DNA from: Climacium dendroides
Taxonomy: Eukaryota; Streptophyta; Bryopsida; Hypnales; Climaciaceae
Assembly: GCA_950106755.1 (NCBI GenBank)
Contig: OX467088.1
Location: forward strand, 30,218,401 to 30,282,400
Reading direction: 5' to 3'
DNA: 64,000 bases
Shown in pieces: positions 44 to 42,842 of this stretch. Position 1 is the first letter of the stretch, and every line of letters starts with the position of its first letter. The position numbers and the translations under genes were made by a program. The notes under the pieces are model-generated. The model was not told the origin of the DNA. It did no database searches and was given only the letters and a program-made list of their open reading frames with translations.

Positions 44-718
44 CTAAGTTCCCGTGCCCCTCAGCCTCTTGCCCATTCTTAGCCATCTGTTTGTACCTAT
101 AGAAATCAATGTAGCTTTTGAAATACCATGAATTGTCCACCCAGCCATAGGACACACTTCCCGACCCCTCAAGGTAATCCACTCCTTCCCAGCAGAATCT
201 TTGTGGATTTGTCTGTGCACCTCAATGAGACACCGTTTGCGAACATACACCCCACCATGCACATGAAGTCCAGATCGTAGAGCTTGAATATCTCCACGAG
301 GAAACGGTTGCAGGCAATTGCTTGGGCAGCATGTCTTTGTAGACACTTCTGTAATTGCTTCTATAGTAAGAAGGGAGTCCTTCTTGGGTGGATGGTCTGC
401 TTCTCTTCTCTCCTGGCAGCTTTCATAGGAACGAACACCAACACGAATACGATGACCAATGGCATTCATTGCTGCCTTGTATATGTGTGTCTGGTCATAG
501 TCATATAAACTCACGCCATTCAAAAACACGAGTTTTATGTGCCAAGAACGCATAGACCACATCCAAACAGACGGCACCTCCTCCTCGCATAAGGACTCTG
601 CAATTTGAACGGCCACCCGATCATCACCAAGAGGTTTACCATCCACATCAATGACGTCCTCCGCATCCACGCTATGACATACTCCTCTTGCAACATCATC
701 TCCTGCGTCGTTCCTCAA
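44..718 (-). CDS. Hypothetical protein, Cys-rich, transposase-like N-terminal region (3' part cut or decayed)
   Basis: This 224-codon frame is open from an ATG at 718. The frame then meets TGA at 44-46 and stays coding-like to the window edge, so the gene may be longer. Residues 130-135 are CCPSNC, and residues 189-202 (CPMAGWTIHGISKA) form a second Cys/Trp-rich block. Between them is a basic stretch with R and H residues. This spacing resembles the Cys-rich, presumably DNA-binding N-terminal segment of uncharacterised eukaryotic transposase-like proteins, but I cannot name a family, so function is inferred. Upstream on the minus strand the region 940-1911 carries six copies of the ATCCTCGA/TCGAGGAT palindrome, and a telomere-type repeat lies at 2453-2477, where a promoter could be. 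It could instead be a host gene of unknown function. Confidence 0.4.
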   Translation of the reverse strand: MRNDAGDDVARGVCHSVDAEDVIDVDGKPLGDDRVAVQIAESLCEEEVPSVWMWSMRSWHIKLVFLNGVSLYDYDQTHIYKAAMNAIGHRIRVGVRSYESCQERREADHPPKKDSLLTIEAITEVSTKTCCPSNCLQPFPRGDIQALRSGLHVHGGVYVRKRCLIEVHRQIHKDSAGKEWITLRGREVCPMAGWTIHGISKATLISIGTNRWLRMGKRLRGTGT

Positions 719-939
719 AGTAACACCCTTTGTGATCCAAGAAGCCCGTGGGACCCATCACACACTGCAATACCAGCGGGTAAAGTGGGGACCGGATTGA
801 CGAAATCATCAGGCCCATGAATATCCATACTACAAAACAGTAGTCCACGGTTAGAAAAATAAGGTGTTCAACGACATAGTACAATTACAAGTTCAGATAT
901 CAAGACTATAGAATTAAATGACAGAAAACTATTACCCAC

Positions 940-1911
940 AATTATCCTCGACTTGAGGATAATTAAATATATATCAAACCATTAGATAAAAGCAACAGAT
1001 ATCAATTACAAACCAAACTAAACGCTACCCATATGTACAAAGAATTCAAAAGCCACCATGTCAGAAAACTATTATCCACAACTATCCTCGACTCGAGGAT
1101 AATTGAACATATATCAAACCATCAGACAAAAGCAACTGATATCAGATACAAAAAAAGCTAAACGCTATCCATATGTACGAAGAATTCAAAATTCACCGCT
1201 CATAAAATCAAATCCTACGTGGATGAAATGACACAACTATTACTGATTCAAACAAGAATTTCCATTAATAATCTTCATATCGACGATAAAAAATCAAAAC
1301 AATTCTAATCCAACCACAAACAACGAAGAATAGCTTCAGAATGAGGTTTACTTTGTACGCCACTTATAAGTTCCTCACATTACTGAGTTTCATGCAGTAA
1401 CCCCAAATAACACCTACAGGTGTATCAGAAAATCAGAATGAACTCATCTAACGGAGATTCACTTCAAACATTTTAATAAAATTATCCTCGACTCGAAGAT
1501 AAATCAATACATCACACTCTCTGATTGATAAAGAAATCTAAAGACTTCAGGTCCTCTTATCTTGTAAAGACCCATCCGTCTAAAGATCAATCCAAAAGAA
1601 ATATTCAATACGAAATGAATATAAGCTATAGTGATCTAACGATTTTATCCTGGACATAGAGATAATTCATTCAAAGTAAATTTATAATATATACACAATA
1701 TTCCGTTAGGCTAGTAATCAACGATCGTCGACTCGAAGATAAGTGTACCCGACATTGAAATAAAGGTAACAATCAATTAATTATCGTCGAGTCGAAGATA
1801 AGTGTACACATAATTACCACAAAGGTATGAATTAGTTAACGTTCAATCAAACATATGCGTACCCAGAATATCCACAAAGGTGACTATCACTTATCATCGA
1901 CTCAAAGATAA
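940..1911. repeat. Cluster of six dispersed palindromes (TCGA-centred)
   Basis: Copies begin at about 941, 1083, 1481, 1722, 1781 and 1891. The copy at 1083-1101 is a perfect 19-bp inverted repeat with one unpaired central base. The copy at 940-964 has perfect 10-bp outer arms (AATTATCCTC / GAGGATAATT) but a decayed centre. Others show CG-to-TG and CC-to-CT changes. A degenerate copy is visible near 1645. The spacing is irregular, so this is not a tandem array. The DNA between copies is AT-rich and shows no convincing ORF. The cluster lies upstream of the minus-strand ORF at 44-718 and may be its 5' leader or introns. Confidence 0.85.
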
Positions 1912-2452
1912 CTATACCTAGAAATGTCACAAATGAAAATATCAGTTATGTCGACTCACTAAGAAGCTCCTGATTTCAAATCCATTCACGCTCAAAACAG
2001 TAGGACAATACACACGTAAGCAACAATGTGCAACCAGAAAAACGGGCGGGGACGGCAGAACAACAGCGCAAAAGAAACTGTTGCATGCATGAGAACTGTG
2101 CAGCAAGGCCAAAACAAAATACAATAAGGTTCGTGGGAGAGAAGGTTGAACAGTTTTGAAAGGATAGCGGCGCGGCGCCAGCAAGTTCCAATTCAAAAAA
2201 CCCGACTTTTAGGAAAGGACACGAATTCCGGCTTTCTTTCCTGATAGCTTTATCGGAAGGTGATATTTTAAGAGGAATCCTTAATTTACATTCGGTCCAC
2301 AAATTCATGGCGCCGCTCAAGTATTTTCAATAGTCAACTTGCTCTGAGTTTAGATCACTGCAGCGGAATTTAAGTCGCTTCTCCAGGAGTTTCCGAACAG
2401 CATTTACGGCCAGGGAATTTATCACTTCTAAGATTGGACGATCGATTCAACG

Positions 2453-2477
2453 TTAGGGTTTAGGGTTTAGGGTTTAG
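2453..2477. repeat. Interstitial telomere-type repeat (TTTAGGG, about 3.5 units)
   Basis: TTAGGG followed by full TTTAGGG units is plain in the sequence. Read on the minus strand it gives AAACCCTAA, the plant telo-box found in promoters of highly expressed housekeeping genes. Its position upstream of the minus-strand locus fits a promoter element. A relic of telomere repair is the alternative. Confidence 0.7.
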
Positions 2478-3573
2478 TGATCCATCGCAAGGGGGGTGTT
2501 CTTATTAATTAGTATAGCCATGGGTAGATGAAGTATATTTAACTCTATCTCTTAATTGTTTTAGATTTTTCATTATTCTATTTCTTAATTTTGTAGATTT
2601 GTATTGAGCCCATTTCAAATTTATATGGAAATTTATGCAAATTCTAGTGACATCAAAATACTTGAAGTGATTGCATGAAATTTTAAAAGTATCTTATAAT
2701 CAATATCTTCCACAATCATGTATAGCTTTGTCTGACGTCATTTAGTAAGTACAACAATAGGCCCTTTTAGTTGAATGCTATAAGTTTCAAAATAAAGTGC
2801 TATATTAGTTTAATGCAATCAATTTCAAAATAGGATGGGGTGCAAAATTTTCTTAAAATATTGTAGATGATCTTAAGGCAAGTCTCCGACATTAATATAA
2901 TAGAATAGGTGCATTAAAACATAGTGAAATTTTGTTTGACAACAAAACTATAAAAACTTTAATACTAAGTTGTAGGAACTTTAAAAATTCACATGCAATA
3001 ATAATTTTTGAACATTTCATTTGTATTTTGGAAAAGTTTATTTCAAGTATTTTACTTGTACTCCCTCTCCAAAATACAATGGGTTGAGAGCCCTTTGGAA
3101 GAATTTCAATATTTCATTTTTCGACCAGGATATAAATGGAAAAAAAGAAAGTATATTTAAAGAAAGGAAAGAGTGATAAAATAAGAATTATTAGAGCTTC
3201 TTCATTATTATTTTTAATTAGATAATGGAACCAATTTGTTAAGAGCTTAGAATGTCTACTAATATCCTTCCAATGTATCATGGAACATACTAGAAATTAA
3301 TTTGAACATACAATCCTTCAAATGAAGCTTGTGCAATTTAGATAGTAATTACAATTTTTGTATTAAAAAATTCTAGACTACTTACTAGAACAATTTCACA
3401 ATTGACGAGGTCTCCTAGCTTGGAAACAAGGCCTCCAAAGCTTCAATCTTGTATCACCAGTATCATGGAGAGCAATAAAACCTTCTTCTACAAATAATGT
3501 AGGAATTTCAAATGAAGAGAATTCAAGGTTCATTAAGCTATTACGATAACGGAAGGTGCCTCAAAAATATTTA
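2478..3573. other. AT-rich intergenic DNA, nothing recognised
   Basis: No sustained open frame, no palindrome copies and no obvious repeat were seen. It separates the telomere-type repeat from the CACTA element. Confidence 0.6.
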
Positions 3574-3576
3574 TTA

Positions 3577-4504
3577 CACTAGAAGAAAAACGTGTCCATT
3601 GCAACCCACTAAGATGCGACTATGTGTCCTATACAACTGAGATGCGACTATAGCCCTCTATATTTGCACCAAATTTCACGTGTATGTAGTTGTAGTCGCA
3701 AAGTAGTCGGAAAATGAAGAATAGGGTTACGATATTGTAACAGAAGAACTGATATGAGGTATTCTACATCCAGTATTCATTGCAGTTGTCCATGTGGACA
3801 GCTATCCGCGAAGTAGAGTCCACCGTGGAAAAATGCAATCGCTCTGATTATAGGCTGCAACTAAAAACTAGAAGATTGCAACTTAGAAATGACTCAAATG
3901 CAACTAGGAATCAACTATAATGCAACTAGAGCCCGACTACAGTGCAACTAAAAAATGATTCAAATGCAACTAGAGAACAAGTGCAATGCAACTAGAACAT
4001 GACTGAAAATCGATTCAATTGTCCCATATCAATTGTCAAGAATACCATCAGCTTGAACAGATAAGAATGGTAAGTTATAGCATTCTTGTGTAATGAATTT
4101 TGATAGTGAAATTCTAATATTTATATATTTTGTAGATTTTTACACTTTGTAGATTTCTACAATTTGTAGATTTCTATAATCTACAACTCTATAAATTATA
4201 ACCAAGTCGCAAACTAGTTGCAAACCAGTTGTATGTCAATCGCAAACCAGTTGCACATTAGTCACAAACCAGTTGCACACAAATAAGTGAAATAACTTCC
4301 ACATCAGCAACCACGTCACAGTAGTTCATCGATGAAGTTCTCCATTTCCTATCGAATGACAAACAACCTCGCGACTGCAATGCAACTCATGCGACTTGTC
4401 CACTGCGACTGTAGACTCCAGAATATCACCAAGTCGCAAACGTTCGATACGACTACAAACCAGTCGCAAACCGCAGTCGCAAAACCCTGATTTTTCTTTT
4501 AGTG
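3577..4504. mobile_element. Non-autonomous CACTA (En/Spm) transposon, 928 bp
   Basis: The left end reads CACTAGAAGAAAAACG. The right end, reverse-complemented, reads CACTAAAAGAAAAATC, matching the plant CACTA terminus CACTAnAAGAAAAA. The 3-bp target duplication TTA is perfect (3574-3576 and 4505-4507). Inside are many subterminal copies of short motifs such as TGCAACTAG and GTCGCAAACCAGT in both orientations, a hallmark of CACTA elements thought to bind the transposase. No transposase frame is present, so it depends on an autonomous partner elsewhere. Confidence 0.93.
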
Positions 4505-4507
4505 TTA

Positions 4508-5233
4508 CTACACTGAACTTCAATTATATCTTGCAATCTATGTAGTCAAAAATTGTATAATAAAATTCATCATATGTTTGGATACAAATGTTTTTTATTG
4601 TAATGAAAAAATTTGAATTTAATTTGGATAAGAATAATTTTAGAGTATTATTTGATCTTGTATAAATATAAAACCTCTTTCGCTAAATCACTCACAATTA
4701 TTGCTTCTAGCCTAAAATAATAATATGCAAAGCATATATAATACATAGTGAAATTATAATTTTTTTCTTGAAATATACATATTTTGAGGAAATATTTTGA
4801 ATTCTAGAAATATAAATTATTTACCATGACATTTTTCCTACAAAATTTTTCTTATTCATAGGTGTTGCATTTATTTACGTCCAAAAAAATCGTAAGAACT
4901 ACATCTATTTTCAATGTATATGATCTTTTTCCAATTAATCTTGTTTAGTGTAGGGTTGCTTTCAAACTCCTCGATAAGACCCTATAAGATTCAAATGAAT
5001 GTAACAGACCCACTTACAAATTATTTATAGATTTCATAAAAATTTGTAGACTCCAATGAAATGAATAGCGAAAGAATTTGAATTAAATAAATTGAAATTT
5101 TTCTACAAAAGTTAACCCTAAATTCAAAAAATCCCTTATGATTGCATCAACCCTACACAATACTTTGATTACAGCTTGCTTAAGATGTTAGAAAACTCTT
5201 AGACATGAATAGTAAATCATTCAATGGACTCAG
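4508..5233. other. AT-rich intergenic DNA, nothing recognised
   Basis: No gene-like frame was seen. The stretch ends where the first palindrome of the next cluster begins. Confidence 0.5.
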
Positions 5234-5382
5234 TATCCTCGCCTCGAGAATAAAAAGGACCACAAGTCTACTAAATTATCCTCGCCTCGAGGATAAATAT
5301 CCTCCCCTCGAGGATAAATATCCTCCCCTCGAGGATAAATATCCTCGCCTTCAGAATAAATATCCTCGACTCGAGGATAAGT
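5234..5382. repeat. Tandem array of the palindrome: five 21-bp units, plus one outlier
   Basis: Five head-to-tail units occupy 5278-5382, each exactly 21 bp, of the form ATCCTC(G/C)(C/A)CTCGAGGATAAAT. A solitary copy lies at 5234-5252. The unit is divisible by three and stays open in one frame, where it reads as a (Y)P(R/P)LEDK heptad. It is the only tandem arrangement of the palindrome in the window. Whether it is translated is unknown. Confidence 0.9.
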
Positions 5383-5422
5383 ATCCACAAAGCACAAAAA
5401 CATTTGGGACCCTGGGAACTTT

Positions 5423-5657
5423 TTATCGTTGAGTCGACAATAATCATCCTCGCGTAAATGTCTATGGCCTAAATATTTAGTCATGCTGGACTATTGGTAA
5501 TTGCAATTATCTTCGGGTCGATGATAACTAGTTTGTGGACCGAACGTGTATGCAAAAACCCTATAACTGAACATTAAACGAGGATTCGAATTACTAAACC
5601 CTAAGACATTCTGTATAGGACAAAGAGGAATTGCCTAAACCCTAAACCCTTAAACCG
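5423..5657. repeat. Two diverged palindromes and telomere-type CCCTAAA repeat
   Basis: Palindrome relatives lie at 5423-5443 and 5507-5527. Telomere-type sequence lies at 5592-5604 and 5634-5656 (CCTAAA units, about three). The following 5.66-6.2 kb is comparatively GC-rich and lacks a convincing long gene. Taken together this could be the promoter and 5' leader of the plus-strand locus starting near 7.2 kb, mirroring the telo-box of the minus-strand locus at 2.45 kb. Confidence 0.6.
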
Positions 5658-6454
5658 AGCCTGATTCCTCCCCAAACTACCAAGCCTACTACCTAGACCT
5701 ACCACTGCCAAGCCTAGCAGGCCGAGCCTACACCGCGTGGTCTGGCGCCGCCAATCTGTGTTGCCGAGCCTGCCGCCGTTTAGGTTCGGCACTGCTTTGG
5801 TAGGTCATTTTCCTCCCGCCAGCGCACGTACGCGCATTTGTTTTCTGAGCTGTGAATGTGTTTAGTTTCTGTGCATGTGTATAGTTGTTGTGCGTGATTG
5901 TGCGTGATTCTTTGCGGCCAATGTAGTTGAGTGAGTTGTTTCTTGTGAGTGCGTGTAGTTCAGTGAGTTCAATTGAGTTCTGTGTGCGTGATCTTTGTAT
6001 GAGAGTTATTTGCGCAAGTTTTTGTGTTTGTGTTTGTGAATGGTAGTTTGAAGCTCTGCGCACACCTTCATTTTCATTTCCAAGTCGTTTAGAATCGTCC
6101 TTTCCCATAGTGCATGTAGTGGAGTTGGAGTGGAGCGTCGACAAATTTTTTGGGTTTCAGCGCTTGTGTACTGCTGTTATTATCAGGTATGTATTCAGTT
6201 CTTGTTCTTGAATTTCAATTTCTACCTTCTTGCATTGCACTTGCAGTTTGATTTGTTGCTTTTCCTTTTGATTAGTTCATAGTTGCCTGTAACAAGGTTC
6301 GAGTTCATTAGTGTTCAGTTGTTACATTCATAGTTCCTATCTGGACGAATGATTTAGGGTTTAGTAATACGACATGGGATTCAAGGAACTTCATTTGAAC
6401 ATAAGTTTTAGGGTTTACGCCTACACGTCCATTTCCCGAACGAACATGCTGCAG
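5658..6454. other. Likely promoter / 5' leader region of the 7.2-kb locus
   Basis: A GC-rich patch (5.68-5.83 kb) is followed by GT-rich DNA. ORFs here are short or low-complexity and look like by-products of that composition. A GTATGT donor-like site lies at 6187. No firm transcription start can be placed. Confidence 0.3.
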
Positions 6455-7099
6455 TTATCTTCGACCCGAAGATAATTGTGTTTTTCCTTAGTCCAGCACG
6501 ATTTCATTTTCAGGGTCTAGTCATTCTAGAGAGGATAATTATCCTCGACTCGACAATAACAAATTCGAGGGGTCTCAAATCCATTCTTGCCTCGAGGATA
6601 ATTATCCTCGGGGCGAGGTTAACCTCGTGTACCCATGGTGCAATTTATCCTCAAGTCGAGGATAAATTGCGCACAACAAAAGGATTAATAATCCGATGTC
6701 CGTGCAGAAATGATAGCTGAAGCGTTGGAAAACCAAGTCAATTATCGTAAAACCAGCATTGTACATTCCATCAGATGAGTTTTAATTCACAATAAATTTG
6801 AGTGTTTTGATGTCTACGCGCAGTCCTAGAATGTCCGTGCTACTATTATCGTCGACGCGAAGATAATTGTGTTCATCAATACAAATTAAAAATGCTAAAA
6901 TAAGAAAAATTAAAGCCTGCCAAAGGCCTATTCAGGTATGTCAAAGACACAAGAGAACAACATAATGACACTGAAGATGATGGAATCCCGTATCAATGAA
7001 ACACATATAATTCAATTGCATCAGAAGACTAAAGTGAACGAACCATTACTCCAACTAGGTCCACAATGATGACGGTCATTTATCTTCGATTCGAAGATA
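6455..7099. repeat. Cluster of palindromes, including a 31-bp copy with 13-bp perfect arms
   Basis: Copies lie at 6455-6475, 6537-6559, 6582-6620, 6640-6670, 6845-6868 and 7081-7099. The 6640-6670 copy has perfect 13-bp arms (GCAATTTATCCTC / GAGGATAAATTGC) around a 5-base centre. Copies at 6455 and 7081 carry matched changes in both arms (TATCTTCG / CGAAGATA), so pairing is kept although the sequence differs from the commonest form. At 6533-6548 two half-sites meet to make GAGGATAATTATCCTC. Confidence 0.88.
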
Positions 7100-7221
7100 C
7101 ATTGCTTCCTCTTGTCCGAGAGGATAGACCATATTCATGGTCGCCATCGTATCTAGCTATCAACATTGACATCACGCCATGAGTAGAAGTAACAACATTC
7201 TAGGAGTCAAGCCTAGAAATA

Positions 7222-8703
7222 ATGGAAACACATCCTCGACTCGAAGATATCCTTAGTGGAAGTCGTAACCTGATCAATACGTGGGCAAGTGCAGATATGG
7301 AGGCGGAAGGCAGTTACGACTACTCACCTACACTACTACTGATGGAGCCGTTCAAGAACCCGTTTGTGAACGAGCCGTTCACAGCTGAATTGCCAGAGAC
7401 TTACAGGAAGCTCTAGCGATTCAAAGACAACAACATTGCCGCGTGGTCATTCGGCATGAATAAGTACAAGGATTACGTCTACCTTCTCTACCGCGCCAAG
7501 GATCAGACGACCTTTTTACCACTGAAGTAGAACGAGAAAGTTTCAGTAATCGAAGAGCACCACCAACACTATGTCGTTATTGTGCTCCGGGACGTTGGGG
7601 AAGACGGGCGTGCTGGTGATCACTACCACTCTCTTGTCCTAGACATAAAAAGTGATCACGCACGGTTCGACATGGCGTATCTTGTCACTACTTTGGAGGC
7701 GTCTTAGATTACGGAATTGGTGAGGACGTTTGAGGCATCAAAATATCTACCCTGGATTGATGGTACAGCGTTTGTCATTTGTAGAAGACTCAATAATATC
7801 TGGAGAGCATTAGATCGATATACAATCAGACATGTGCAGCAAGTCCCTCCAATTGGTGTGCCTTAGAATCGAAAGAAAAGGAAATCAATTGACCCAAGCC
7901 AGACAGCGACTGCTTCGGGTAGTGTTGCAACTGGTCCAGGACAAGTGTGTTCGGAGCCACGCAGTCATCCGGAGACTCAATCCGGAGGTCCATCGAGTTC
8001 CAAGCCAAAGCGACCGCGGGGAGGCATTGCATCCAAATCAGCAGTGGCTGGTAGTTCTGGGTCAGTCCTTACGACTGTGGAAGCAGTCGACAAGGAGAAA
8101 AAGGATTTCGAGGATTTTGCTGAAATTCATAAGAATTTCTGGAATACTCACGTCGCCTGCTTTGTGTTGGGCCAAGACCCTATTGTAGTGTTGATCAAAC
8201 AATGCTTTCTTGCGAGAGACGAGTATATTATTCGGAAGCTCGAGAGAGGCATTATTGAGGACGTGAAGAAGGAGCTCATCCAATTGGGCGATATCAAGCA
8301 AAGGCAGCGTATTTGCATCACTCCTGTGGATGCCAAGAAACGACTTTTGAAGTCCCCACCCCTGAAATGGGATGACATTAAGGACGGCGGATTCATGATA
8401 ATCAATGGCCAACACAGTGTCACCGCCTCTCAGGAGTTGCAGGTTGAGGACTGCGATGAAACGCGAAGGCGAGAACTTCAGACGTGGGAGGCTTACGTTG
8501 TGTGGACCCTAGACCTAGAGATGTTGACAAACATCTCCGCCTTCTACAACTCCACCAACCACCTCGATCACGCGCAGCCAACCTGGGGGAACCAGATTGT
8601 TAGTTGTCGAAACATCTGGATCCATTGTCTCCGCCCGACAAATGATCCAGAGGAGGCAAATTTCAGAAGAAATGGAGCCGTCTTAAGTAGTATCCAGTAC
8701 CAG
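7222..8703 (+). pseudogene. Locus 1, exon 1: protein with ParB/DGQHR-like motif, four in-frame TAG codons
   Basis: One frame runs 494 codons from ATG 7222 to the donor CAG|GTAAGT after 8703. It is broken only by TAG at 7414, 7528, 7705 and 7864. From 7867 on it is open and gene-like. Around 8390-8420 it reads IINGQHSVTASQEL, followed some 45 residues later by an Asn-rich helix (FYNSTNHL). That arrangement resembles the GQHR...N pattern of ParB/DGQHR-type proteins; this match is by motif only. The first codons (HPRLEDI) are a copy of the 17-bp palindrome, so the true start may lie elsewhere. A paralogue might be functional; this copy would need readthrough at four sites. Confidence 0.55.
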
Positions 8704-8862
8704 GTAAGTCTTGAATGATCCTCATTATCTTCGAGTCAAGGATAGATTTCCTATAGTAGACATTGTTTGCAATACATGTCAGTAGTAATTAATTATCATC
8801 GATTCGCAGATAAGTGCGAAATATGTAGCTGTGCATTGACCCAACCTACTCGTGTCTTGCAG
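8704..8862 (+). other. Intron 1 of locus 1, with two palindromes
   Basis: Donor CAG|GTAAGT and acceptor CTTGCAG|AAA give a 159-bp, phase-0 intron that joins two frames of matching character. It contains diverged palindromes at 8724-8744 and 8793-8813. Confidence 0.7.
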
Positions 8863-10184
8863 AAATTTTGTAAGCTTATGGTCAGTCGCTTCAAAAATAT
8901 CAATCCGGAAAAGGACGGAGCGACTATCAAGACAGCAGCTGACTTGAAGTGTGAGATGAAGATTATCACGCTTCGGGATAGTCTTTTCAAGTACTAGAAT
9001 GAATTTCTGACGATGCATTCTGAGGGCGAGTTAGTCGAGCCAATCACAGGGCTGAAGTTTAAAGAGCTCAAGGGCTTCAATCAAAAAGCTTTCTCCTTGA
9101 AACGAGAGTTTTTCAAGCACCTCGGCCACTTCACAGACAAGGACTTGGCTGCATATGCAATGCATTTGCTGAACAAGACACCTTCCCAGAATGGGTCTTA
9201 CCCGAAAGTGTCCGTGCAGAGGACGAAGATTTTGGTGCCCGACAACTATGCTGGCGCAGATTGGATTGAACGCAGGAAGCGGAAGAAGATTGTCCTTGAA
9301 GAACTCATAGCTATCAAGCCCTCGTTGGACTTACGACAAGACAATGGAGACGTCTTGGACAACGTCTGGAGGGCATGAAAAGCGAGGCACCGATTTTCTG
9401 CGTCGACATGGGACTTCCTTCTTTCACACCCTCGAGGAGAATTTTTTAAGAAGAGGTTGACGAATGAAGCCAAGAATCGGAGGGCAAAAGATCTTGGAGA
9501 GAAGTTCGAGGACGAACAAACTCTTTTCCAAAGGTTCATGAAGTTGAAGTATAGATTGCCTTCTATTTCTGGAGGAGTGGCATTGAGGGATTGGACATTC
9601 AAGAAAGGGTTCTCGTCGTCAATGGGAGTTACAATTACGAGCCACGGCCTCTCAACCTCGCCATTCTTGATGTCCGTCAACTCTGGAAGCCCAAGGAGAC
9701 GGACAAAACACCATCTCTGCAACCATTCCTAGAGTTCCTTGCCACGAAGTTGCAGCCAGCAGCTATGGAGGCGAGTGTATGGTTGTGGATCCTGGGCGAC
9801 CCAACTGAACAGCAAACTGCTGCACAATTTGCCAAAACTCAACTCACAGAGTTTGACTGCGTTCAGTCGAGATACATTTCCAACCGAGCGGAGCGGCTGA
9901 ACAATGTAACGAACCGGTCATCGGCTCCTCCAATGCCGCTGCTCTTTCTATTCAAGAAGGGTGACGAGCACGCTTCTCTGGTGCGGCAGAGAATGAAAAC
10001 GGAATACGGCACCCCCGATATTCCGTACTACCTGGATTCCTCCAAGAACAATGAAGCGAAGTGGAGGTTGTACGCGACGGAACTTCGAATGGAGTTCTAT
10101 TTCGAGATCCTCCAAAGCTTCGCGGTTTCCGGCGAAAATGTCTTGGGCATCTACGTAGGATTGAAGTGTGTGCTGGCTGCAAAG
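8863..10184 (+). pseudogene. Locus 1, exon 2: hypothetical, TAG, TGA and one frameshift
   Basis: The frame from 8863 continues exon 1 in phase. It is stopped by TAG (8995) and TGA (9376) but stays open across them. Near 9590 the coding character moves to another frame (DIQERVLVVNGSYNYEPRP) and runs to the donor AAAG|GTATGC after 10184. Composition is that of a soluble, charged protein. No known domain was recognised. One indel plus two transition-type stops make this copy non-functional as read. Confidence 0.55.
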
Positions 10185-10423
10185 GTATGCTTATCCTCGA
10201 CTCGAGGATAGTTTATTGCTTTTGTTCAATTTTCTAGCATAGGCTTTGTTTTTACATGTTTTTATGATCCTTGAATTATCCTCGACTCGAAGATATAGTC
10301 AATTCTATTCATAATGGCGTAATATATTAGTGACTATGGTGTTTAGGAAATTATCCTCGACTTGAGGATACAAACTCTATAATCATAGTGACTAAGATTT
10401 GGCTCCATTGTTGGCTTGTCTAG
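10185..10423 (+). other. Intron 2 of locus 1, with three palindromes
   Basis: A GTATGC donor and a CTTGTCTAG acceptor bound a 239-bp phase-0 intron. It holds three palindromes, at 10191-10210, 10276-10295 and 10351-10370. The first starts only six bases after the splice donor. In a transcript each could fold as a short hairpin. Confidence 0.65.
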
Positions 10424-11992
10424 ATGTTCGGAGCATACTTCTACGGCATCGTAGACAAAGATCTAACAGCGAGACATCGAGTAGTGGCAACGTTGGCTGA
10501 CTCATTGGATATGAATGATTTTCTTCATTCCAATTCCCCGTATTCTGCGAAGTACGTGCGGCCGTTGCACGTTGGGTCTCCACTTCTGCTCTCCGTGTCT
10601 CCGCCGCATGGCGACGATCTGGAATCACCTCGGTCAGCATCTGAGCGAGAGTCATGAGATGAGGACTCTGGTTCTGGAAACAGACACGAGGTGACACCGC
10701 ATCCCTCAGAAGCAATTCCTGATGAGGACCTACTTGGCATTGACGAATATGGGAGTATGGTGCCCACTTTGAAGCCTGTGCGGACTACCAAGGCAGGGTC
10801 TTCAGTAGACGAAGACATTGAGACAGATACGGAGTGGGACCAATGGCAAGCTGAACTGAGGACCAAGCGGACGCAAGAGCAGCAGGGAGATCGGGGACAA
10901 CCACCTCGTCAGCAATCACATGTGCAGCGGTCACCTGAGCTGCCTCCTCCTCAGCAGTTGGAAGCTACACAAAACCGCGCTGAGGATGAGGTTCCGGATG
11001 CCGCGATGGGTGGTTCCCAAGCGCATGAGGTTGAAGGTAGAGCCGGTTTAGACGTCCTTCCTGCCGAACGCCAAAAAATGAAGTCCGTAATCACTCACGA
11101 GGTTATGGATCTTAGTGATTTTGATTCAGAAGACTTTCCTCACTCCTCTGACGACGACGACGAAGAGAGTGAGCCCGAAAAAGAGGCTGTCGTGTCGACG
11201 TCGGCAATCTCTGAGTTGGCGGCTAAGCCTTCCGCAAAAGTGAAGGATGATCTCGGATATTGGGACATGGTAAACGAGCGGAAGGCTAGGAGAGAGGCAA
11301 GGAAGAAGGCACGACAGGACCAGCTTGACCTCAAGGACAAGCAGATCAGAGAAGCGGTGGCCTCGAGTCAAGAGACCAACCTAAGGTGCGCCAAGCTGGA
11401 GGAAATGGTGGCGGAACTTTTTGCTAGATCTCTATCGCAGACTCTCCCAAGCCAAATTCCAATGCCACCTCCAGTCCACTCCTCCTTGCCTGTAGCATCC
11501 GCGTCCCGCGATGCTGCCAATCCTTCTCATCCTCGAGTCGAGGATAAGACTAACGAGGTTCATCCCTCCGGAGACGACTACGTTGTAGCGACTCCAACAT
11601 CTCAGCTGCCCACGCCTAGTCTCACACGTCACGATGGGCAGTCTGCGCTCATCCCCGAATCTGCGGGCGTCACTCCTGCAGCACATCCTCGAGTCGAGGA
11701 TATTGATGGAGTTCCTGCGTCTTTGTTGGCAAGACCCTCAAGGCCTCCGAAAGTGGTCGACGAAGTAGAGGCTGCTTTATGCACAACTTCCCAAGAAGCG
11801 GGTGGAGAAGATCTTCGTGTCGATGATCTGGAGGAGGAGCTTCTTGATTACGGGGAGGCCGAAGAAGACATCCTCGAGAACATTCTCGAGGAGGGGGAAG
11901 TTCGGTCGGAGGCGACTGCAGTTGGTGAGGGCGAGGGATCACAAGGCGATGCATCGGAGGTACACTTGGCTGATCCATATGCGTTTATCTGA
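10424..11992 (+). pseudogene. Locus 1, exon 3: acidic, low-complexity C-terminal region containing two in-frame palindromes
   Basis: The frame is open from 10424 to TGA at 11990, apart from one TGA at 10655; the same frame resumes directly (DEDSGSGN). The product is acidic and Pro/Ser/Glu-rich, with a charged helix-forming stretch around 11260-11420 (likely coiled coil). Two perfect 17-bp palindromes, at 11529-11545 and 11685-11701, are read as HPRVEDK and HPRVEDI. The end is rich in Glu/Asp (EEELLDYGEAEED). An AATAAA signal follows about 245 bp downstream. No known domain; probably disordered. Confidence 0.55.
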
Positions 11993-12237
11993 GTGTCTGC
12001 GATGTGTAATGATTCGTGTCTTGCTTGGCTTGCGAAAGAGGTTGCTCTTTTGGTGTAGATTCCCTGTACTGAATCAAGTTTCGTTGGCAGGAAATCACAT
12101 TTATGATTGCTAGGCATTGATGCAGACCTCTAGGCCTACCTGCGTGTAGAATAGTGTAGCATAGAGTGTTCGCGTGAATCTGTGCTTCATTTAGTTTCAC
12201 GCAAAGTGTAACATGTAATCTTTGTAAAGAAAATGTA

Positions 12238-12243
12238 AATAAA
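12238..12243 (+). terminator. Poly(A) signal AATAAA of locus 1
   Basis: AATAAA occurs in T/A-rich DNA about 245 bp after the last stop of locus 1, a usual place for a plant polyadenylation signal. Confidence 0.45.
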
Positions 12244-12463
12244 ATTCCTATTCTCACAAGCTTCTAATTTCAATCTTTGTCGATGTTTTGTTTGCTCAGC
12301 CTATAATTCTTAAAAGCTTGTACCATCTGAGGGCATTGAAATCGCTTCCTGACTGGAACATGCAATCCATTAGTGGAATTCTGTGCTCCGTCCCGTTGTC
12401 TAGCTCACCTAATTCTGCATTCAAACAGGTAACTCCATTTCTTTGTTGTTCTGCTTTCATCAG

Positions 12464-13285
12464 GTAGAATTGCACAGGGGTGAAGAGAACGTGACGGATA
12501 TCGTAGAGCCCTCACCCTCGGTCAAGTGGCTCAACATTGTCTTCGATCTGAACGGCATTCTCTGTCAGTGCTTGCCAAGGTTAATCGCTAATAGTTTCAA
12601 GCCGTATCGGATGGAAGACAATGTGTTGTGCCACCTGAACCCGACTATCGTCGGGCCGAAGACCATGTTCGCGCGACAGAACGTCCGAGAGTTCCTGCAC
12701 GAGGTGTCACAAATCGCGAACAAGATTGTTATATAGTCCTCTATGGTGCAGCCCACTGCGGAATTGGTCGTCGAGCATTTGTTTAGGGGAATAAAAGCCC
12801 CGTATGACGTCCTAGGTCAGGAGAAATGCAGGAGGATAGAGACCTCGAAGGGAAAGTTTATCACGCGCGATTCTAAACCAGTATTCTTGAAAGTCCTATC
12901 TGAGCGCATGTTCAACCATAAGGGCGTGTGCACGACTTTCAACATGAACAATACCCTGCTCATTGATGACTCTCCCGAAAAGAGCGTCTGTAATGAGTTG
13001 TGGAATGCTGTGTTCTTCAATACCTGGACTCGTGCTCACTTGACAGACAACTTCCTCATGTCAGAACTCCTTCCTTGGCTTGCGCGCTTAGAGTCGGTGC
13101 ACGATCCGGGGCGTCTACGTGAGTTTGTAGGGGCGAACAGGATTGGCTTGGAACCCCTCACGAAGAACGACTACCAAGTGCAGTTCCTCGTGGAGGGGAT
13201 GAGGATGTCTGCCAGGAATCTGGGATATCGTTTTGAGCTTCCCGGCCTCCAACTAGTGATAGGCCCGGAGAGACGCGATCCCTAG
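12464..13285 (+). pseudogene. FCP1/SCP-type HAD phosphatase-like domain, TAG at the conserved Trp
   Basis: The exon starts after a strong acceptor (pyrimidine tract then TCATCAG at 12463). The frame reads VFDLNGILC near 12538, which matches HAD motif I of the FCP1/SCP phosphatases in the DLNG form, where the second Asp is Asn. Further on NTLLIDDSPEKS near 12949 matches the late acidic motif, followed by WNAVFFNTW. Between them IVI*SSM sits where the family has IW(S/T)S, so the TAG at 12734-12736 replaces a Trp codon (TGG to TAG). Such enzymes dephosphorylate Ser in proteins, e.g. the RNA polymerase II tail. This copy is presumably inactive: stop codon, altered motif I and no clear first exon. 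Confidence 0.65.
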
Positions 13286-13550
13286 TCATCCCTACAATCG
13301 TTTGTTTAGGGTTCCTTCGGGCGGCCTCGTAGGTTTGGATTGAATAGGAACTCACGTTTTGTATTTTTGTAATATTGTACATTTATTCAATTGTATATAA
13401 TTTTGAGAGCAAAGATTTTGGCACAGATGTTCCGCTATTGTATTGAGCGTTCCAATTGTCTGTCCAAGTAAATATGCGTTTCCTTTGCTTGTGATCATTT
13501 CATCAGTGGTATAATGTGGGCAGAACTTGTGTAATCTGGACTTCCTGCAG

Positions 13551-14120
13551 GTTGATTCTCCAAATGGAACTGAAACAAGCAAACATCACCGAGTGGCCAA
13601 GAGCCTCCTTTCCGGGTCGGAGAAGCTTGTTCTCCCTGTCAGCGACGATACACATCATCCTTGCCTCGAGGATGGTGTCCCGACAGATTCTGTAGGTCCA
13701 GCTACGGAGACAAAGGTCGTTAAGGAGCTAGTTGGCTTGCCGAATCAAGTAAGGGGGGCACAGGTTGGGGCTCACAGTGCACCTCATTTTCCTCGACTCG
13801 AGGATAGTGGGCCCCCGTCCCCACGTAGTGTTGGACGGCGAACGTTACTTCCCTCGCACATTCTGTTTCAACGGACGATTGCGAGAGAACAGCAGCAGTC
13901 GACGAGTTCTAAATCAATTGGAAATGCACGTCTGTACATAAACAATGTCGATATGCCATGGCCGACACCTCGAGGATCGAGGTCCCTATCTTCCTCCGAA
14001 TTACCTCCACACAAGCGTCAAGCAAAGCGCAAGGACAGTACCTCTCTAGGTATGGACCTCAGCAGTGGCGCGCAATATCCAAGTGCATCGTACCAGTCCT
14101 CACGACGTGAGGATATCTAG
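13551..14120 (+). CDS. Hypothetical Ser/Pro-rich exon with in-frame palindromes
   Basis: The exon follows an acceptor CTTCCTGCAG. The frame is open for 189 codons to TAG (14118) and stays coding-like a little further. It is Ser/Pro/Arg-rich with no recognised domain. Palindromes at 13657-13673 (HPCLEDG), 13789-13805 (FPRLEDS) and 14097-14113 (SSRREDI) are all read in the same frame. The last is a re-paired variant, TCCTCAC / GTGAGGA. It may be the tail of the phosphatase-like gene or a separate gene. Confidence 0.4.
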   Translation, partial: VDSPNGTETSKHHRVAKSLLSGSEKLVLPVSDDTHHPCLEDGVPTDSVGPATETKVVKELVGLPNQVRGAQVGAHSAPHFPRLEDSGPPSPRSVGRRTLLPSHILFQRTIAREQQQSTSSKSIGNARLYINNVDMPWPTPRGSRSLSSSELPPHKRQAKRKDSTSLGMDLSSGAQYPSASYQSSRREDI

Positions 14121-16541
14121 AGAGGCATGGCAAGGCTGAAGGCGTTGGAGGCGCTAGAGGCGGACAAGAACAATTGTACAGGCCACAAATGACGTTTGGT
14201 CAAGCCGATTCAATTTTGGATGCCATGGGCGTCAAATTGCCTAAACCCTATAAATAGCATGCTGAATAGAATACAGAAAAAAAATTACTTAGAAAAGTTG
14301 AGGTTTATGTGTACAGTTAGCCTCTTCGTTTCTACACAAATTCAGAGTACCTAGTGCTCAATAGCCATTTACGTCCAGTGACATCGTGATAGAGGCTTGA
14401 AAGTTCTTTGTGTAATTAAACTCTCAAGTAATTTGAGCTTACTGAATGCAATTCAACTCACTTTTCTATGCATCTATTTATCCTTTGTTAATTATTTTCT
14501 AGAATGTAGCCTTAGAGATCTTTATTGTTGTTGTGAGTTGAGGGTTCATTTACAACTATTCAATCAATTGAGCTTCGCACTCCGGTTTTCAATGTCTCAA
14601 AATGACCATTTTGTCTCAATTTAACGAATAAGGCCTTTTTCATTGATAAAAACATCTACAAAATTGTAATATAAGCTACTATATTGGGATAAATAACTTC
14701 AATTCCTAATTAAAGATTAAAATAATTCATATGCACTTGTCCAACCCTTTGCCTTTAATTTGAATTTGGTCATTTAGCCCAATCATTGATGATTTTAGCA
14801 TAATGTAACAACAAACCACCTAATATAATACAATAATTGGATTTGATTGTAGTATAAACAATTTCTATGAGGGTAATCACTTACAAGATATCATGTTTAT
14901 GGATTTTAGTGTTCTTTAATTCATTGGCCTTAGTAAATGAAAGCGGCTCTTCCCCTCCCTTCAAGACTATTCTTGTATAGATTTATAAATTATGTACTAT
15001 GAATCATTATAATATAATATATAGTAGTTGTTATATAGTGCGCTTCAAAAAAATGATGCTATAATAACTTGAATATTTTTAAAATTATTAGTTTCAACAT
15101 TTAAGATGTACCCAATAGTATGTCTCACATTGTTTTTAAAATAACCACTAGTAAAGCACTTGGGAGTATACTTGTATTAGATCATGTAATACAAATTTCG
15201 TGAAGTTTGACCTTTTAGATTGAAAGATATTAGCATTCAAAGTGAAAGTTATTAACATTTAAAGTGGAAAAAAAGAAGTTTTGAACCCTAATAGTACCCA
15301 AGAATTATAGATGATTTTGACTTAAAACTTTTGGAATATTTTTGCACAATGAACTTTATATTAAAAAATTTAATGTACTAAAGAGATTATTAGGTGTACC
15401 AATTTTTTAAGACAAATAAATAAATAGAACACATCCAATAAAATTCTACAATGCAACAATGTCCAAAGAAATTACTTCATAACACACTATTTTCCAATCA
15501 CATTTTACACCACATACTTTCAAAGTACAATATAGTAATTCCAATACTGAATTGAAACATATAGATTATTCATCTATGACAAGCCAAAAAAATTACAACA
15601 AATGCAAAACTCCTAATTTCTATAGGATTGAAATGTATAATGTAAGTTCTAAAGAGTCCAATGGAGTGGGCATTCCTTTAAAAAAGAATCTAGCTTGTTC
15701 CTTAATTTGTTCCTAATTGGTCTTGGAGTTGGGAAAGGTGAAGAAAAAATAATAAATACAGGACTTGGACTCAGAGAGTAAAGGCCAATGTTCCAACTGA
15801 GTCTCTTGTATAATATTTTTGAAGCAATTAAGCACCCCCAAAATGGATCGAAAAGTCCAAAATCCATTTTCTAGGAATTTTTTAGATCTTCATTGGGTAG
15901 ATTTGGAGAAAATTCAACCCACTTGAATGCCTTATAAAATGTTTTTCTCTTCCTTTCATATTCAAAAAAATTGTTTGGGACTTGGAGGCTGAGTTGAATT
16001 CATCTCAGCCTCAATAAGTGCTACCATGCTCATGTGGGACTTCACACATACCAATTTCTAGCTCTCCACCAACCAGATTTTGTAACTTCACAGGGACTTG
16101 GGACATAAAGTGAAGTGGCTCTCAGAAAACGCCTCCAGATCAAGAGTGTGCGATCGCAAAAACTACCGACATAGCCCATAAACGACTCCCATTGCATCCG
16201 GCTGCTACCGCGTACGGTCCATGTACCCAGGATATCCGAGAAATCCTCCCTTGGCTCATCAGTAGTCAGTCTACAATGGTATTCAGAAAACTGAACCAAA
16301 TTTTCAGACAGTTACAGTATCAAATGCAGCCACAAGAACGAGGACAAATTGACTTGCGAGCACGTCAACAAATGGCGAACTGATAAGGTGACTGACAAAT
16401 CAACGTAGTATACATGAACCTGATGGAGTTTGTCTTGAGATTCAAATCTTCGATTGGCAGTTTATGAACTAATATATGGAATCACTTTAAAAGTGAAGAG
16501 CAGAACTCCAGTAAAGATCTCATCGCCTGTACAATGCAGTC
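14121..16541. other. AT-rich intergenic DNA
   Basis: Short ORFs only. No palindromes, splice-flanked exons or repeats were recognised. The part after 16.0 kb may be the distal 3' side of the prohibitin gene. Confidence 0.5.
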
Positions 16542-39095: not shown

Positions 39096-42000
39096 TCATG
39101 GTGTTTTCTTCATCGTCTGATGAAAGTGTTTGAGTTTCCCCTTTTTCTCATGTACTGTTGAAGATACACGAGCTTTCTTAGGCTTGCCCATCATTTGCTC
39201 GTTCTTTGCTTTCATCAAGGTTTTCCCTACACGTTCACGAAGGCGATCAACCGCTTTTCCTTTTCTCAACGGAAGTTTTGGAATAGACGGACGCTTATCA
39301 AAGGGGGTTTTTCCTACATTCACTTTCTTCGTTGGAGAGATTGCAAACGGCTCCATTACTCATTTGTTCTTTGCTTTAGAGGGTTCTTCCATCATCATTG
39401 CCATCTCTGCCTTTCTCCCTTCTTTAGTGAATGCTTCTATAGCATTTGAAGATTCCAGTGTCGGGTTCGCTAGCCTTGTTGAAGATGCTGGTAGGCGGTT
39501 TCCTTGCTTCTTTAACATTGAGGCCAACGTCTCATCTTCCTCGTCATCGGTGAATGAAGAAATCTGCAATCTTCGATTTTTGGTATGTTCTATTTCTTTC
39601 GAAATGATGGAAGCTCGTGTCGGACGTTGAGAACTTCCTGAACCCACCAAAGTAGTGCTTACACTATTAAATAGTGAGCGTGCACCTATTGGAGGAATGC
39701 TACGCGGTGGACGTACAAAACTTGTCATGTTTTCCTTTGTGCCTTGGCCACTGTGAAGCAAGTTCGGACTTCCACATTCTATCAAACACAAACGTACATT
39801 GTCTTGTGTCCCACTCGCTTCATGGTTTAGGCTACTTGGTTCCCCGTTGCTTTTGCTTGCCAATCCTCCTAGAGACTCCACGCTTATCTTGTCCACATTC
39901 ATTTGCTCGCGGTCCTCAACGTTGTCATTCTTTTCTAGTTGGGCCACCACTATGGATGGAGACCTACCGCTTCCAATCACTTCATCTATTTCGGAAGTTC
40001 TAGCATTGGATGCTATGGTTCCATTAGAAGTCAGGACTTGGACATTTGCGTCCTCTTCGTTTAGATTGAAGACCTTGTCACTACTTAGAAATCGATTTCC
40101 ATCTACAAACCTTGCTATGGAAGGTACGCCTTCATCGTTTCCACAATCATTATCGTCCATTGGAAAGTCGTACTCGTCTCGGTCATTGTTGCCCATGTCA
40201 TCATCATTCATATTTACTCTTCCAAACGGTTCACCTCCAAAATTGTATGTGTTGCCATCCAAATCTTCTTCTTCATTGAATATTGGGTCGTCCCAATTTG
40301 CTTCTTGTCCATGTGCTTCATTCCCGTCCACACGAACACCTTCTTCTTCATCTTCGCTGTTCTCGTCATCTTCATTTGGTCCCTCCGATTCTTCTGAATC
40401 TACATTTTCAAGGTACCACTTCTTCTCATCCCTCTCCTTGGATGCGGCCAACACTCTTGAATTAGTGTTCACATACACCAAATCCGCAGCTCTCTTTGTT
40501 CTCAACTTATTCCGAGATTTGTTGTAAACAAAAGAATAGCTACTCCAGTTCCGTTCACATGAAGATGAAGATACCGGTTGGCCCAATATTCTCCTTGCAA
40601 TTGGAGCAATGAGCTTCCCACATGCGCCTTCAAAATCCCACCAAACGTGTGCCGATAATTTTTGTTCACTTGGATCCAACATGTTGTGGAAGGGAGGCTC
40701 CCTATGTTGAAACGCCATGAATTCCTTAACGACGTCCGCGTAGTCCGTAGGTTTACATATTCACATGAGAACATGCTTGCATGCCTCGGTGGCCTCTGAA
40801 TCGTCGGCTAGTTCTTTATCGTGCAAAAGATAGGGATTCAAAAGAGCTCCTGTATATTGGAGATCGGTCTCTACCATTTCCCATCTAGCGTTGAACGCCT
40901 CCTTCAATGGTTTGGCAAATTCGGGGCTCAATAGAAAAGGCGGATTTTCTAACCCCCCCACATGCGACCGTATCTTCCTCATAATATGCAAAACTTTCCC
41001 TGAACATGGAGTCTTTGCATCTAAATCACGAAGGCCATACACAACAATGCCCATCAACTGCACAAAATTTGTGCAACGCCTCTAGAAATGCTCATTGTTT
41101 ATTATCTTCTTTGTACACCGAGACTTTGTACGGTTCTTCTTTTTCTTGTCATCCAACGTCCTCACATATTGTTCCCAACGCGGATCTATCACACTCTGTT
41201 GAAGTGCTCCCTTCACTTTCAACAAGCGTTCAAGTGCAATGAAATTTGAAGCAAATCTTGTTTCGCCTGGCATCAATAAGCTGTGCTCTTTTTTGTATGA
41301 ACGAAATATTGCAAGCGGCATGTGCTGCTTTCTAAAAAACGTAAGAACCATATGAGCTTTGGCCACGACATCCGCCACCCATGCTTCCTTCCCCCAATCT
41401 TTTAGCAACAAATTCAAGGCGTGCACCACACAACCTTGAAAAGAAATGTGAGGATATTTGTCTTTTATGATTCTACATGCTCGAGGGTTTACAGGAGCAT
41501 TGTTCGTTGTTATTTGCACCACATATGCGGACCCACCTCCTGTATGAATTTGTCCAAAATAGAGGCCAAGTACTCTGCGTTTTTTACGAACCCACTTGTG
41601 TCCACCGATCCCAAAAATTGCTCCCCTGCAGAAGATACAAGCATACAATTCACCAATGGCCGATTTGTAACCGAACTCCATCCATCAATAGACAAGGTTG
41701 CTCCAAACTTTTTGATACTATCCTCGGTCCTCTTCTGCAACTTTAGCTTGACATCTTCTTTCGCTTCTTCTAGTAATTTGGTTCGTAGAGTGTCGTACGA
41801 TGGTGGGCTGTATGGCTTACCAAACTCAGCTGTTTTTTGACTGCTTCTTTGAAGGCCTCACTTCAAGCTACCGCAAATGGTATGTTGGCTGAATAGAAGA
41901 AATTTGCCCACAACGCATTCAAATTGCGTCTATCAGCTTGTTCAAACCCATCTACTAGCCGACTTTGTCTTCGGGGCCGATTGATGGAAGAGGGTGGAGT

Positions 42001-42396
42001 TGGACATTGTTCACTTGATGTTTCCACACTTTGATGTACCCTTGAAGACGCATGATGAATTTCAGACGGCGCTACACATGAGTCCTCTTGTGTTGAACGT
42101 GAAAAATCCCTTCCATTTGAGGCATTGTTTGCAACCCTCCCTATGTTTTCACCATCTATATTGTCAAGGGCCGATCTTCGTGGAAATAACCCATTACAAC
42201 CGGCAAAAAGAGTTCGAATTGACAAAGTCAATTTTGGACATATGCTTACCCTCTTGTCGCGAACACCGTCTTTGCCTTCATATCCAAGGTAGCTCAACAT
42301 GCGACACTTCCAATTTGCAAACACCAAGTCACATGCCTTGCACTGCACTTTACCGCTTGATGGAACAACATACCAACCGGAAAAATCCTTACTCAT
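39096..42396 (-). pseudogene. hAT-superfamily transposase (BED / DUF659 / C-terminal dimerisation), inactive
   Basis: In order on the minus strand: start at 42396 with a BED-like zinc finger (VQCKACDLVF); a linker; DUF659 core (LSIDGWSSVTNRPLVNCMLVSS near 41690); then CVVHALNLLLKDWGKEAW; and the hAT dimerisation domain (SSSCERNWSSYSFVYNKSRN near 40540) followed by a long acidic tail. Lesions: TGA near 41863, a frameshift in an A run near 41850, a second within DUF659 near 41530, breaks near 41080 and 40760, and TGA at 39360. The block VVQITTNNAPVN has Asn where the family has Asp in ITDNA, so a catalytic acid is lost too. A GGACGG array lies about 300 bp upstream (array 2) and another beyond the 3' end (array 1). 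Confidence 0.88.
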
Positions 42397-42702
42397 TGTG
42401 GAAAGCTCTGTTCAAGTTCAAGTCCAAGTTCCAATCTTGTCTTCAGTTCCAAATGTTTAGGTTCAAATCACCATGTCACATGTATCAAATATAGTCTATA
42501 AGCAAAGCCTTAGAAACCAAAGCCCCCTTGTCCACTGAACTATGCATTACCAAACAAGGGACACAAAGATTGCAGCTCCTAGCCCTTGGAAATCTTAGCG
42601 TTCAGTTTCTCAGAAGTGCTTGTAAATGCCTTCTTCCTTGCTCTTATACTCCTAATTTGTTGAATGTTCTATGCCTTAGAAGTAACCGTTGCCAACGGTT
42701 AG

Positions 42703-42842
42703 AAAACCCGGCGGACGGGGTAGGCGGACAGGGCGGACGGATGGTGATTGGGTCGGTCAAGGCGGATGGGCGGGTGGACGGGTCGGACGGGCGGGTCGGA
42801 CGAGCGGACGGGCCAGACGGGCGGTCGTGCGAACAGGGCGGT
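42703..42842. repeat. GC-rich GGACGG array 2 (upstream of the hAT gene)
   Basis: About 140 bp of GGACGG/GGCGGACGGG units on the plus strand, i.e. CCGTCC on the sense strand of the hAT gene. The array ends 307 bp before the hAT ATG. DNA from 42843 to 43292 is AT-rich without genes. Confidence 0.85.

Follow-up and report, generated by a model that had tools for sequence, protein, structure and literature searches.

Organization of the locus

The window analysed here, a stretch of 64,000 nucleotides of Climacium dendroides DNA, contains near its start one decayed large DNA transposon. In this element, a DUF7869 transposase gene occupies one side and an opposed, divergent, intron-bearing gene the other, the latter consisting, in order, of a ParB/sulfiredoxin-type exon, a degenerate DNA-methylase-like exon and a NIF-type phosphatase-like part. 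A 13-kb domain of palindromes had been recognized in the preliminary description, and its extent was borne out within the window; that the domain is a transposon had been missed.

A decayed 5' portion of the DUF7869-type transposase gene lies at 44-757 on the minus strand and shares 61% identity over 217 residues with the open reading frame L022:6100-7704:-. Beyond that frame, its continuation at L022:5395-6096:- gave a Pfam match to DUF7869 at 7.2e-40; the window fragment itself had no Pfam match above the cut-off. On the upstream side of this gene, palindromes were found between 942 and 1911 (at 942, 1082, 1482, 1722, 1781 and 1891, with weak copies at 1269 and 1645). A group of six is present at 5233-5380 (5233, 5276, 5297, 5318, 5339 and 5360), followed, at 5423-7250, by those upstream of the ParB-like open reading frame (5423, 5507, 6455, 6539, 6581, 6602, 6645, 6846, 7080 and 7230). 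Palindromes are thus located upstream of both divergent genes.

Exon 1 (7297-8703, plus strand, as are all the following parts of this gene) combines a weak PH-like N-terminal part with a ParB/Srx-type domain, as judged from its translation, its homologues and the structure model and fold search of homologue P0010. It carries four in-frame TAG codons, as in a decayed copy, and several other copies of the exon have no stop. Codon reassignment was considered for these TAGs and rejected, the locus L040 having CAG at the one shared TAG site. Intron 1 (8704-8862, splice sites read from the sequence) contains palindromes at 8725 and 8793. Exon 2 (8863-10184), a degenerate N4/N6 DNA-methylase-like region according to its translation, its homologues and weak Pfam and fold matches, is broken by stops and by a frameshift near 9.55-9.6 kb. 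Intron 2 (10185-10423) holds palindromes at 10191, 10276 and 10351. Exon 3 (10424-11992) is acidic and coiled-coil-like, with one in-frame TGA. Some palindromes lie inside exons and also encode protein there: those at 11527 and 11683 are in frame in exon 3 and translate as HPRVED. The NIF/FCP1-type phosphatase-like region (12500-13285) has one in-frame TAG and matches Pfam NIF at 0.005, below the cut-off, while its relative in L005 reaches 2.4e-14. The last open reading frame (13515-14120) includes palindromes at 13655 and 13787 and a variant at 14097-14113.

The right terminal inverted repeat (14610-14628, minus strand) differs by one mismatch from TTCGTTAAAATGAGACAAA and is followed by a target-like AAGGCCTT at 14630-14637. 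Only this end is present in the window. Both inverted ends were seen together in L017 alone, where ATGGCCAT on each side forms a target-site duplication, observed in this one copy; no copy assembled here spans the full length with both ends.

The palindrome family and its distribution

The palindrome has a single-base centre, and a pattern with a 3-base spacer gave no match. Within the window, 25 sites differ by at most three mismatches from TTATCCTCGAnTCGAGGATAA, when 0.01 is expected from shuffles, and all are found between 0.94 and 13.8 kb, so that the family is real. At up to six mismatches, 33 sites were counted between 0.9 and 14.2 kb (0.63 in shuffles). The half-site TATCnTCGA occurs 34 times before 14.2 kb, both strands included, and is absent from the remaining 49.8 kb of the window. 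From 14.2 to 64 kb, two sites with at most six mismatches were obtained against 1.8 expected; with the further requirement of 8 of 10 arm pairs, one site remained and 0.07 was expected. The isolated copy reported at 63.47 kb, with six mismatches and 8 of 10 arm pairs, is therefore a doubtful member of the family. The TCGAnTCGA core is also absent from the 9.9-kb flanks on either side of the window (L027, L028).

Confinement to 13 kb holds for the window; it does not hold for the genome, since the same 412.6-Mb assembly contains 8,241 exact copies of TATCnTCGAnTCGAnGATA (control: 0) and at least 138 matches to the ParB-like exon. When stretches of contig C1 were fetched solely for their palindromes (taken from the top of a list rather than at random, with L022 and L023 adjoining), 11 of 12 also contained terminal repeats, the transposase or the ParB-like gene of this transposon. 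The sole exception, L015, has one palindrome and no trace of the transposon. Short, geneless, non-autonomous copies (mini-elements) also contain palindromes, near their ends. Furthermore, a palindrome with 0-4 mismatches is located just inside intron 1 in every one of the 17 loci that cover this intron, a position kept over deep divergence.

Palindromes are gained locally by tandem duplication of 21-bp and 207-bp units, those at 5276-5360 forming a head-to-tail array of the 21-bp unit. Many sites share a common ancestry through such duplication.

The matched arm changes noted in the preliminary description gave a mixed picture in the window alone. Matching arms at position 6 were counted in 20 of 35 sites (13.9 expected, p = 0.012), mostly because 17 sites have C in both arms; three share a non-C base and nine have changed differently in each arm. 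Over all arm positions, nine matched changes were observed against 5.4 expected (p = 0.07). When other genome copies were included, position 6 co-varied, with agreement in 42 of 67 distinct sites (20.7 ± 3.4 expected) and, upon shuffling within each locus, in 39 of 61 (29.6 expected, p = 0.0017).

Outside this genome, three stretches with one palindrome each were found in viral contigs, which contained no confirmed relative of exon 1. Genome contigs yielded no match with a single-protein query and three loci with an alignment query, all within one cyanobacterial MAG; as their introns are spliced, eukaryotic contamination of the MAG is suggested. The transposase fragment had no match in plasmids. 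Among the publications listed by the literature searches, none describing such an element was seen, and DUF7869 is mentioned in no paper of the library searched.

The ParB-like gene products and the palindrome word

For the 7867-8715 segment of exon 1, 82 homologues were collected. The structure model and fold search of P0010 established the presence of a ParB/Srx-type N-terminal fold; no DNA-binding domain or helix-turn-helix was recognized, the P0010 model being of low confidence after residue 417 and the exon 2 model poor. In the 30 aligned rows, INGQHS or close variants stand in place of the GERRxR phosphate motif. Because GERRxR is missing from the sequences, CTP clamp activity of the ParB-like domain appears doubtful. 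A subgroup of about 11 homologues, with tails such as HIPSHY, reads into the intron without palindrome peptides.

Exon 2 has 13 homologues. In L005 it matches Pfam N6_N4_Mtase with E 0.033, below the cut-off, and the same exon of L006 gave no match. Its low-confidence model (pLDDT 53.8) resembles DNMT2, MTA1 and M1.HpyAVI, and also an acetyltransferase, with a best E of 4.6e-3. The methylase catalytic motif, of the DPPY type, was not seen in the aligned region. Exon 3 had one homologue among the candidates scored; the relative P0083 carries HPRVED and HHRVDD. PDB sequence searches gave nothing better than E 0.2.

Of the two words compared, ATCnTCGA follows one clade of the ParB-like protein and AGCTCGA the other, the second word being represented by three loci, two of them close kin. 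Each of the two sources examined contains both clades. The separation of the words is imperfect, as L041 also holds at 3260 TTATCTTCCAATCGAAGATAA, a palindrome near the first word. Since the word differs with the gene lineage, the palindromes look like a self-recognition code between an element and its own protein.

Interpretation and comparison with known systems

On balance, the transposon probably encodes a dimeric protein complex for which its own palindromes are the DNA binding sites. A dimeric-protein site had been among the roles first proposed, and it is supported indirectly by the two-fold symmetry, the co-varying half-site base, the word that tracks the protein lineage and the geneless mini-elements that carry sites. 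The ParB-like product, alone or as part of a complex, would load at the palindromes; the transposase or a third product could also be the binder. Once loaded, the ParB-like product would, by analogy with VANC for VANDAL, counter host silencing so that its own element stays expressed or mobile. Site and protein would drift together, which would give each lineage its own word. Several points speak against this reading: the missing GERRxR motif, the lack of a recognized DNA-binding domain, the subgroup of homologues whose introns yield no palindrome peptides, the imperfect separation of the words, the shared ancestry of many sites and the protein-coding use of those in exons. In a fuller version, which we advance tentatively, an element-encoded ParB-fold protein and its methylase-like partner may load in a parS-like manner at tens of palindromes in each copy, all specific to its lineage, and thereby let the element's own DNA escape silencing; word and protein would co-evolve, so that families within one nucleus would recognize only themselves.

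In a CACTA-like alternative, rather unlikely in our estimate, the palindromes serve transposition as binding sites of the transposase or a TNPA-like accessory, and the ParB-like gene is incidental. The palindromes near the mini-element ends and upstream of the transposase open reading frame fit such a role; however, many sites lie in introns or precede the ParB-like frame, kilobases from the one end seen, and the word follows the ParB-like lineage, although the transposase may share that history. The chances are slim that the sites are recognized by the methylase-like exon, the element marking itself by modification of TCGA or GATA steps: this region adjoins the ParB-like exon and each palindrome offers two TCGA steps, but the sub-threshold family match (none in L006), the low-confidence model and the unseen DPPY-type motif all argue against it.

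An RNA hairpin, acting in splicing control or as a small-RNA source, would suit the place of palindromes after 5' splice sites in introns 1 and 2, their self-complementary arms and the matched base at position 6. Selection on a hairpin should yield an excess of G-U mismatches; on the gene-sense strand, 51 G-U-type and 58 A-C-type mismatches were counted (143 sites, p = 0.57), so the hairpin role suggested earlier is not supported. Sites also precede the gene and occur in mini-elements, and Rfam gave nothing at the gathering threshold in the window, which makes this reading improbable as well. Tiny mobile palindromes are known as Rickettsia palindromic elements and yeast mitochondrial GC clusters, and the preliminary description had envisaged such a unit. 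The high copy number, the in-frame presence in exons and the transposon-free palindrome of L015 are compatible with colonizers of this kind, but nearly all of the palindrome stretches fetched from contig C1 belong to the transposon, the intron position is conserved, the terminal repeats are those of the whole element and local increase proceeds by tandem duplication. An independent mobile unit is accordingly very improbable.

To our knowledge, sequence-specific anti-silencing by transposons is known only from the VANDAL elements, which are Mutator-like. If the proposed anti-silencing role is true, a second, unrelated transposon family would have the same layout with a ParB-type protein, self-recognition codes would arise repeatedly, and a bacterial chromosome-partition fold would be drawn into the conflict of transposons with silencing by the host. 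Two words and two protein lineages make the specificity directly testable. As described in PMC5735166 and PMC10398659, Arabidopsis VANDALs have element-specific short motifs in introns and upstream non-coding regions, multiplied by tandem repeats; the motifs change with the element lineage, and related elements use different words in one genome. For VANC21 the motif is 9 bases long, its copies all pointing the same way in the array. The present element similarly has element-specific, tandem-expanded motifs in its non-coding parts, here with some in exons too, and its word changes with lineage, both words coexisting in one genome. In contrast, its motif is a 17-21-bp palindrome, its transposase belongs to DUF7869 and matched no Mutator family in Pfam, and its candidate accessory protein has a ParB-type fold, anti-silencing being proposed by analogy.

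In ParB-parS systems, a helix-turn-helix reads a palindrome. Within the bacterial ParB family, GERRxR is the phosphate-binding motif and KorB acts with OB sites that lie close to the promoters of a mobile genome or far from them (PMC11790492), and VirB is an antisilencer that counteracts silencing (PMC10770331). The element shares with them a ParB-type N-terminal fold and specific sites near or away from promoters in a mobile genome. It differs in being a eukaryotic-type transposon with a spliced gene, an attached methylase-like region and neither GERRxR nor a recognized helix-turn-helix. Rickettsia palindromic elements lie in frame in coding exons, as some palindromes do here, but the latter show no sign of independent mobility. 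CACTA elements carry subterminal TNPA repeats, many short motifs clustered near the ends, to which a protein of the element presumably binds. Many short copies per element are likewise present here, whereas many of these sites are located upstream of genes and in introns.

The palindrome-bearing element of the window

The palindrome family of the preliminary description proved to be real: 25 palindromes differing from TTATCCTCGAnTCGAGGATAA by at most three mismatches were found in the window, where 0.01 were expected, and all of them lie within 942-13807. The half-site TATCnTCGA occurs 34 times to the left of 14.2 kb and is absent to its right. When up to six mismatches were allowed, 33 sites were observed between 0.9 and 14.2 kb (0.63 in shuffles) and two between 14.2 and 64 kb (1.8 in shuffles). 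The additional copy reported at 63.47 kb is thus doubtful, rather than dismissed, because one site against 0.07 expected is retained in 14.2-64 kb once eight of ten arm pairs are demanded. The TCGAnTCGA core is absent from both 9.9-kb stretches directly flanking the window.

The palindrome domain corresponds to a single, decayed DNA transposon. The first part of its transposase gene (44-757, minus strand) shares 61% identity over 217 residues with an ORF in L022, another fetched stretch, and the continuation of this ORF matches DUF7869 (7.2e-40). An opposed gene on the plus strand, with predicted splice sites, was read from the sequence: exon 1, of ParB/sulfiredoxin type, spans 7297-8703, exon 2 follows intron 1 and ends at 10184, and exon 3 follows intron 2 and ends at 11992. 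To the right of exon 3, ORF and family matches indicate a NIF-type phosphatase-like ORF and then a last ORF, both on the plus strand. The right end of the transposon was placed by terminal-repeat comparison at 14610-14628; its left end was not found, the transposase homology ending inside the adjoining stretch L027. The opposed gene is interrupted by in-frame stops, mostly TAG, and by a frameshift. TAG predominates among the in-frame stops of the window copy (7297-14120) and of many other copies, and one shared site reads CAG in copy L040 and TAG in the window, a pattern that fits CAG-to-TAG decay, as might arise via deamination at methylated CHG sites.

Introns 1 and 2 contain two and three palindromes, respectively. 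The exonic palindromes at 11527, 11683, 13655 and 13787 share one frame and read as PRVED or PRLED-like peptides; two peptides of this type were also seen in the homologue P0083.

Position and symmetry of the palindromes

Intron 1 was inspected in 19 loci, two of which (L016 and L023) stop short of it. In all 17 others, which represent 14 distinct sites (L021 and L024 are near-identical copies), a palindrome starts 11-28 nt downstream of the first GT where exon 1 ends. These palindromes show 0-4 mismatches to a family word, as compared to 7-10 for exon 1 stretches of equal length; in 300 shuffles of each locus, no equally good match arose. Their arms form all ten pairs in three loci, nine in four, eight in four and seven in six. 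Family palindromes were also present upstream of the ParB-like ORF in 8/10 further copies, the exceptions being L040, truncated upstream, and L034, without a palindrome in its stretch.

The end of exon 1 was placed in 54 of 82 homologues, 34 of which read at least 12 residues beyond it. Palindrome peptides occur in 15 of these 34 tails (0.05 in shuffled tails), with patterns defined after some tails had been viewed and the tail of P0074 cut too early. A subgroup of about 11 homologues (P0016, P0021, P0023, P0035 and similar ones) has a different tail into the intron, with no palindrome peptides, possibly because the sites were lost or a different word is used.

The matched arm changes claimed for the family gave a mixed picture in the window and were borne out at position 6 across genome stretches. 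At position 6, the arms agree in 20 of 35 window sites (13.9 expected, p = 0.012), only three sharing a non-C base and nine carrying two different changes; over all arm positions in the window, p was 0.07. Among 67 distinct sites of genome stretches, agreement at position 6 was observed in 42 (20.7 expected), and in 39/61 (29.6) with a control within loci, the sites not all being independent since tandem duplication, seen in a 21-bp array among the window palindromes and in 207-bp units of L022, spreads variants locally. Arm positions 1 and 2 of the same 67 sites showed no excess of agreement.

Genomic copies and the two palindrome words

The confinement to one 13-kb domain holds within the window and not genome-wide. 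In the 412.6 Mb of the source genome, which its telomere-type repeats suggest to be plant-like, TATCnTCGAnTCGAnGATA has 8,241 exact copies (control, 0), and the ParB-like exon has at least 138 matches, the window included and at least one copy being counted as two pieces. On contig C1, 11 of 12 stretches fetched for palindromes (the first places of the list, hence non-random, with L022 and L023 adjoining) also show terminal repeats, transposase or a ParB-like gene, which argues against the suggested tiny mobile palindrome; L015 has none of these beside its palindrome. L017 is a mini-element of about 240 bp with both terminal repeats, a ATGGCCAT duplication and two palindromes, and is resembled by L018 and L019, each with one terminal repeat within three mismatches.

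In L005 and L006, the word TTCAGCTCGAnTCGAGCTGAA replaces the first one. This second word was found at 77 places in the source genome (at most one mismatch; control, 0). In L041, a stretch chosen because of it, the ParB-like exon is 42% identical to homologue P0081 and 25% to P0010, and second-word palindromes, several of them imperfect, lie upstream and directly after exon 1. A single palindrome near the first word (TTATCTTCCAATCGAAGATAA, L041:3260-3280) in this otherwise second-word element may belong to a nested mini-element. A tree built from 26 rows has a 100/100 branch that separates the two words. Since each side includes loci of both the source genome and the record of the cyanobacterial MAG AVDCRST_MAG81, the word appears to follow the ParB-like protein lineage and not the host, the second word being represented by only three of the loci compared. 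The contigs L004, L005 and L006, filed under this MAG, carry intron-bearing relatives of the transposon and are probably eukaryotic contamination.

A candidate reader of the palindromes

Among the roles proposed earlier, a binding site for a dimeric protein would account for the symmetry, the positions, the mini-elements and the link between word and lineage. The protein would be encoded by the transposon itself, its ParB-like product being the candidate reader, with putative binding and anti-silencing activities, and we favor this explanation with moderate confidence. The word may equally be tied to the transposase lineage. The first-word palindrome in L041 slightly lowers our confidence in the favored explanation, and the rival that the transposase itself binds the palindromes becomes slightly more likely. 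A hairpin in RNA is improbable, as it would give an excess of G-U mismatches, and 51 of these were counted against 58 of A-C type.

By its layout, a system of palindromes read by a ParB-like regulator would work like VANDAL/VANC, in which lineage-specific words lie in introns and upstream of genes and multiply in tandem (PMC5735166), features all shared by the moss element. The transposase differs, so the moss element is not a VANDAL member. The fold of the candidate reader resembles those of KorB and VirB, the latter an antisilencer (PMC10770331); the missing GERRxR motif excludes the candidate reader from the canonical ParB CTPases. No paper on such a transposon was found in the literature searched, most subscription papers lying outside the search.

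Outside the transposon, very similar ORF pairs near the right end of the window (60048-61523) and just left of the window (L027:7535-8953), about 60 kb apart and compared by eye, are another repeat family. In the 39360-44762 region, the minus strand carries an ORF with a hAT-type dimerisation domain (Pfam, 1.6e-9) and a RING-type ORF (Pfam, below cut-off). Recurring stretches between 37.6 and 59.5 kb read as RTDGRADG-like peptide repeats, and the single predicted tRNA-Ser (47279-47350), located inside such a stretch, is probably spurious.
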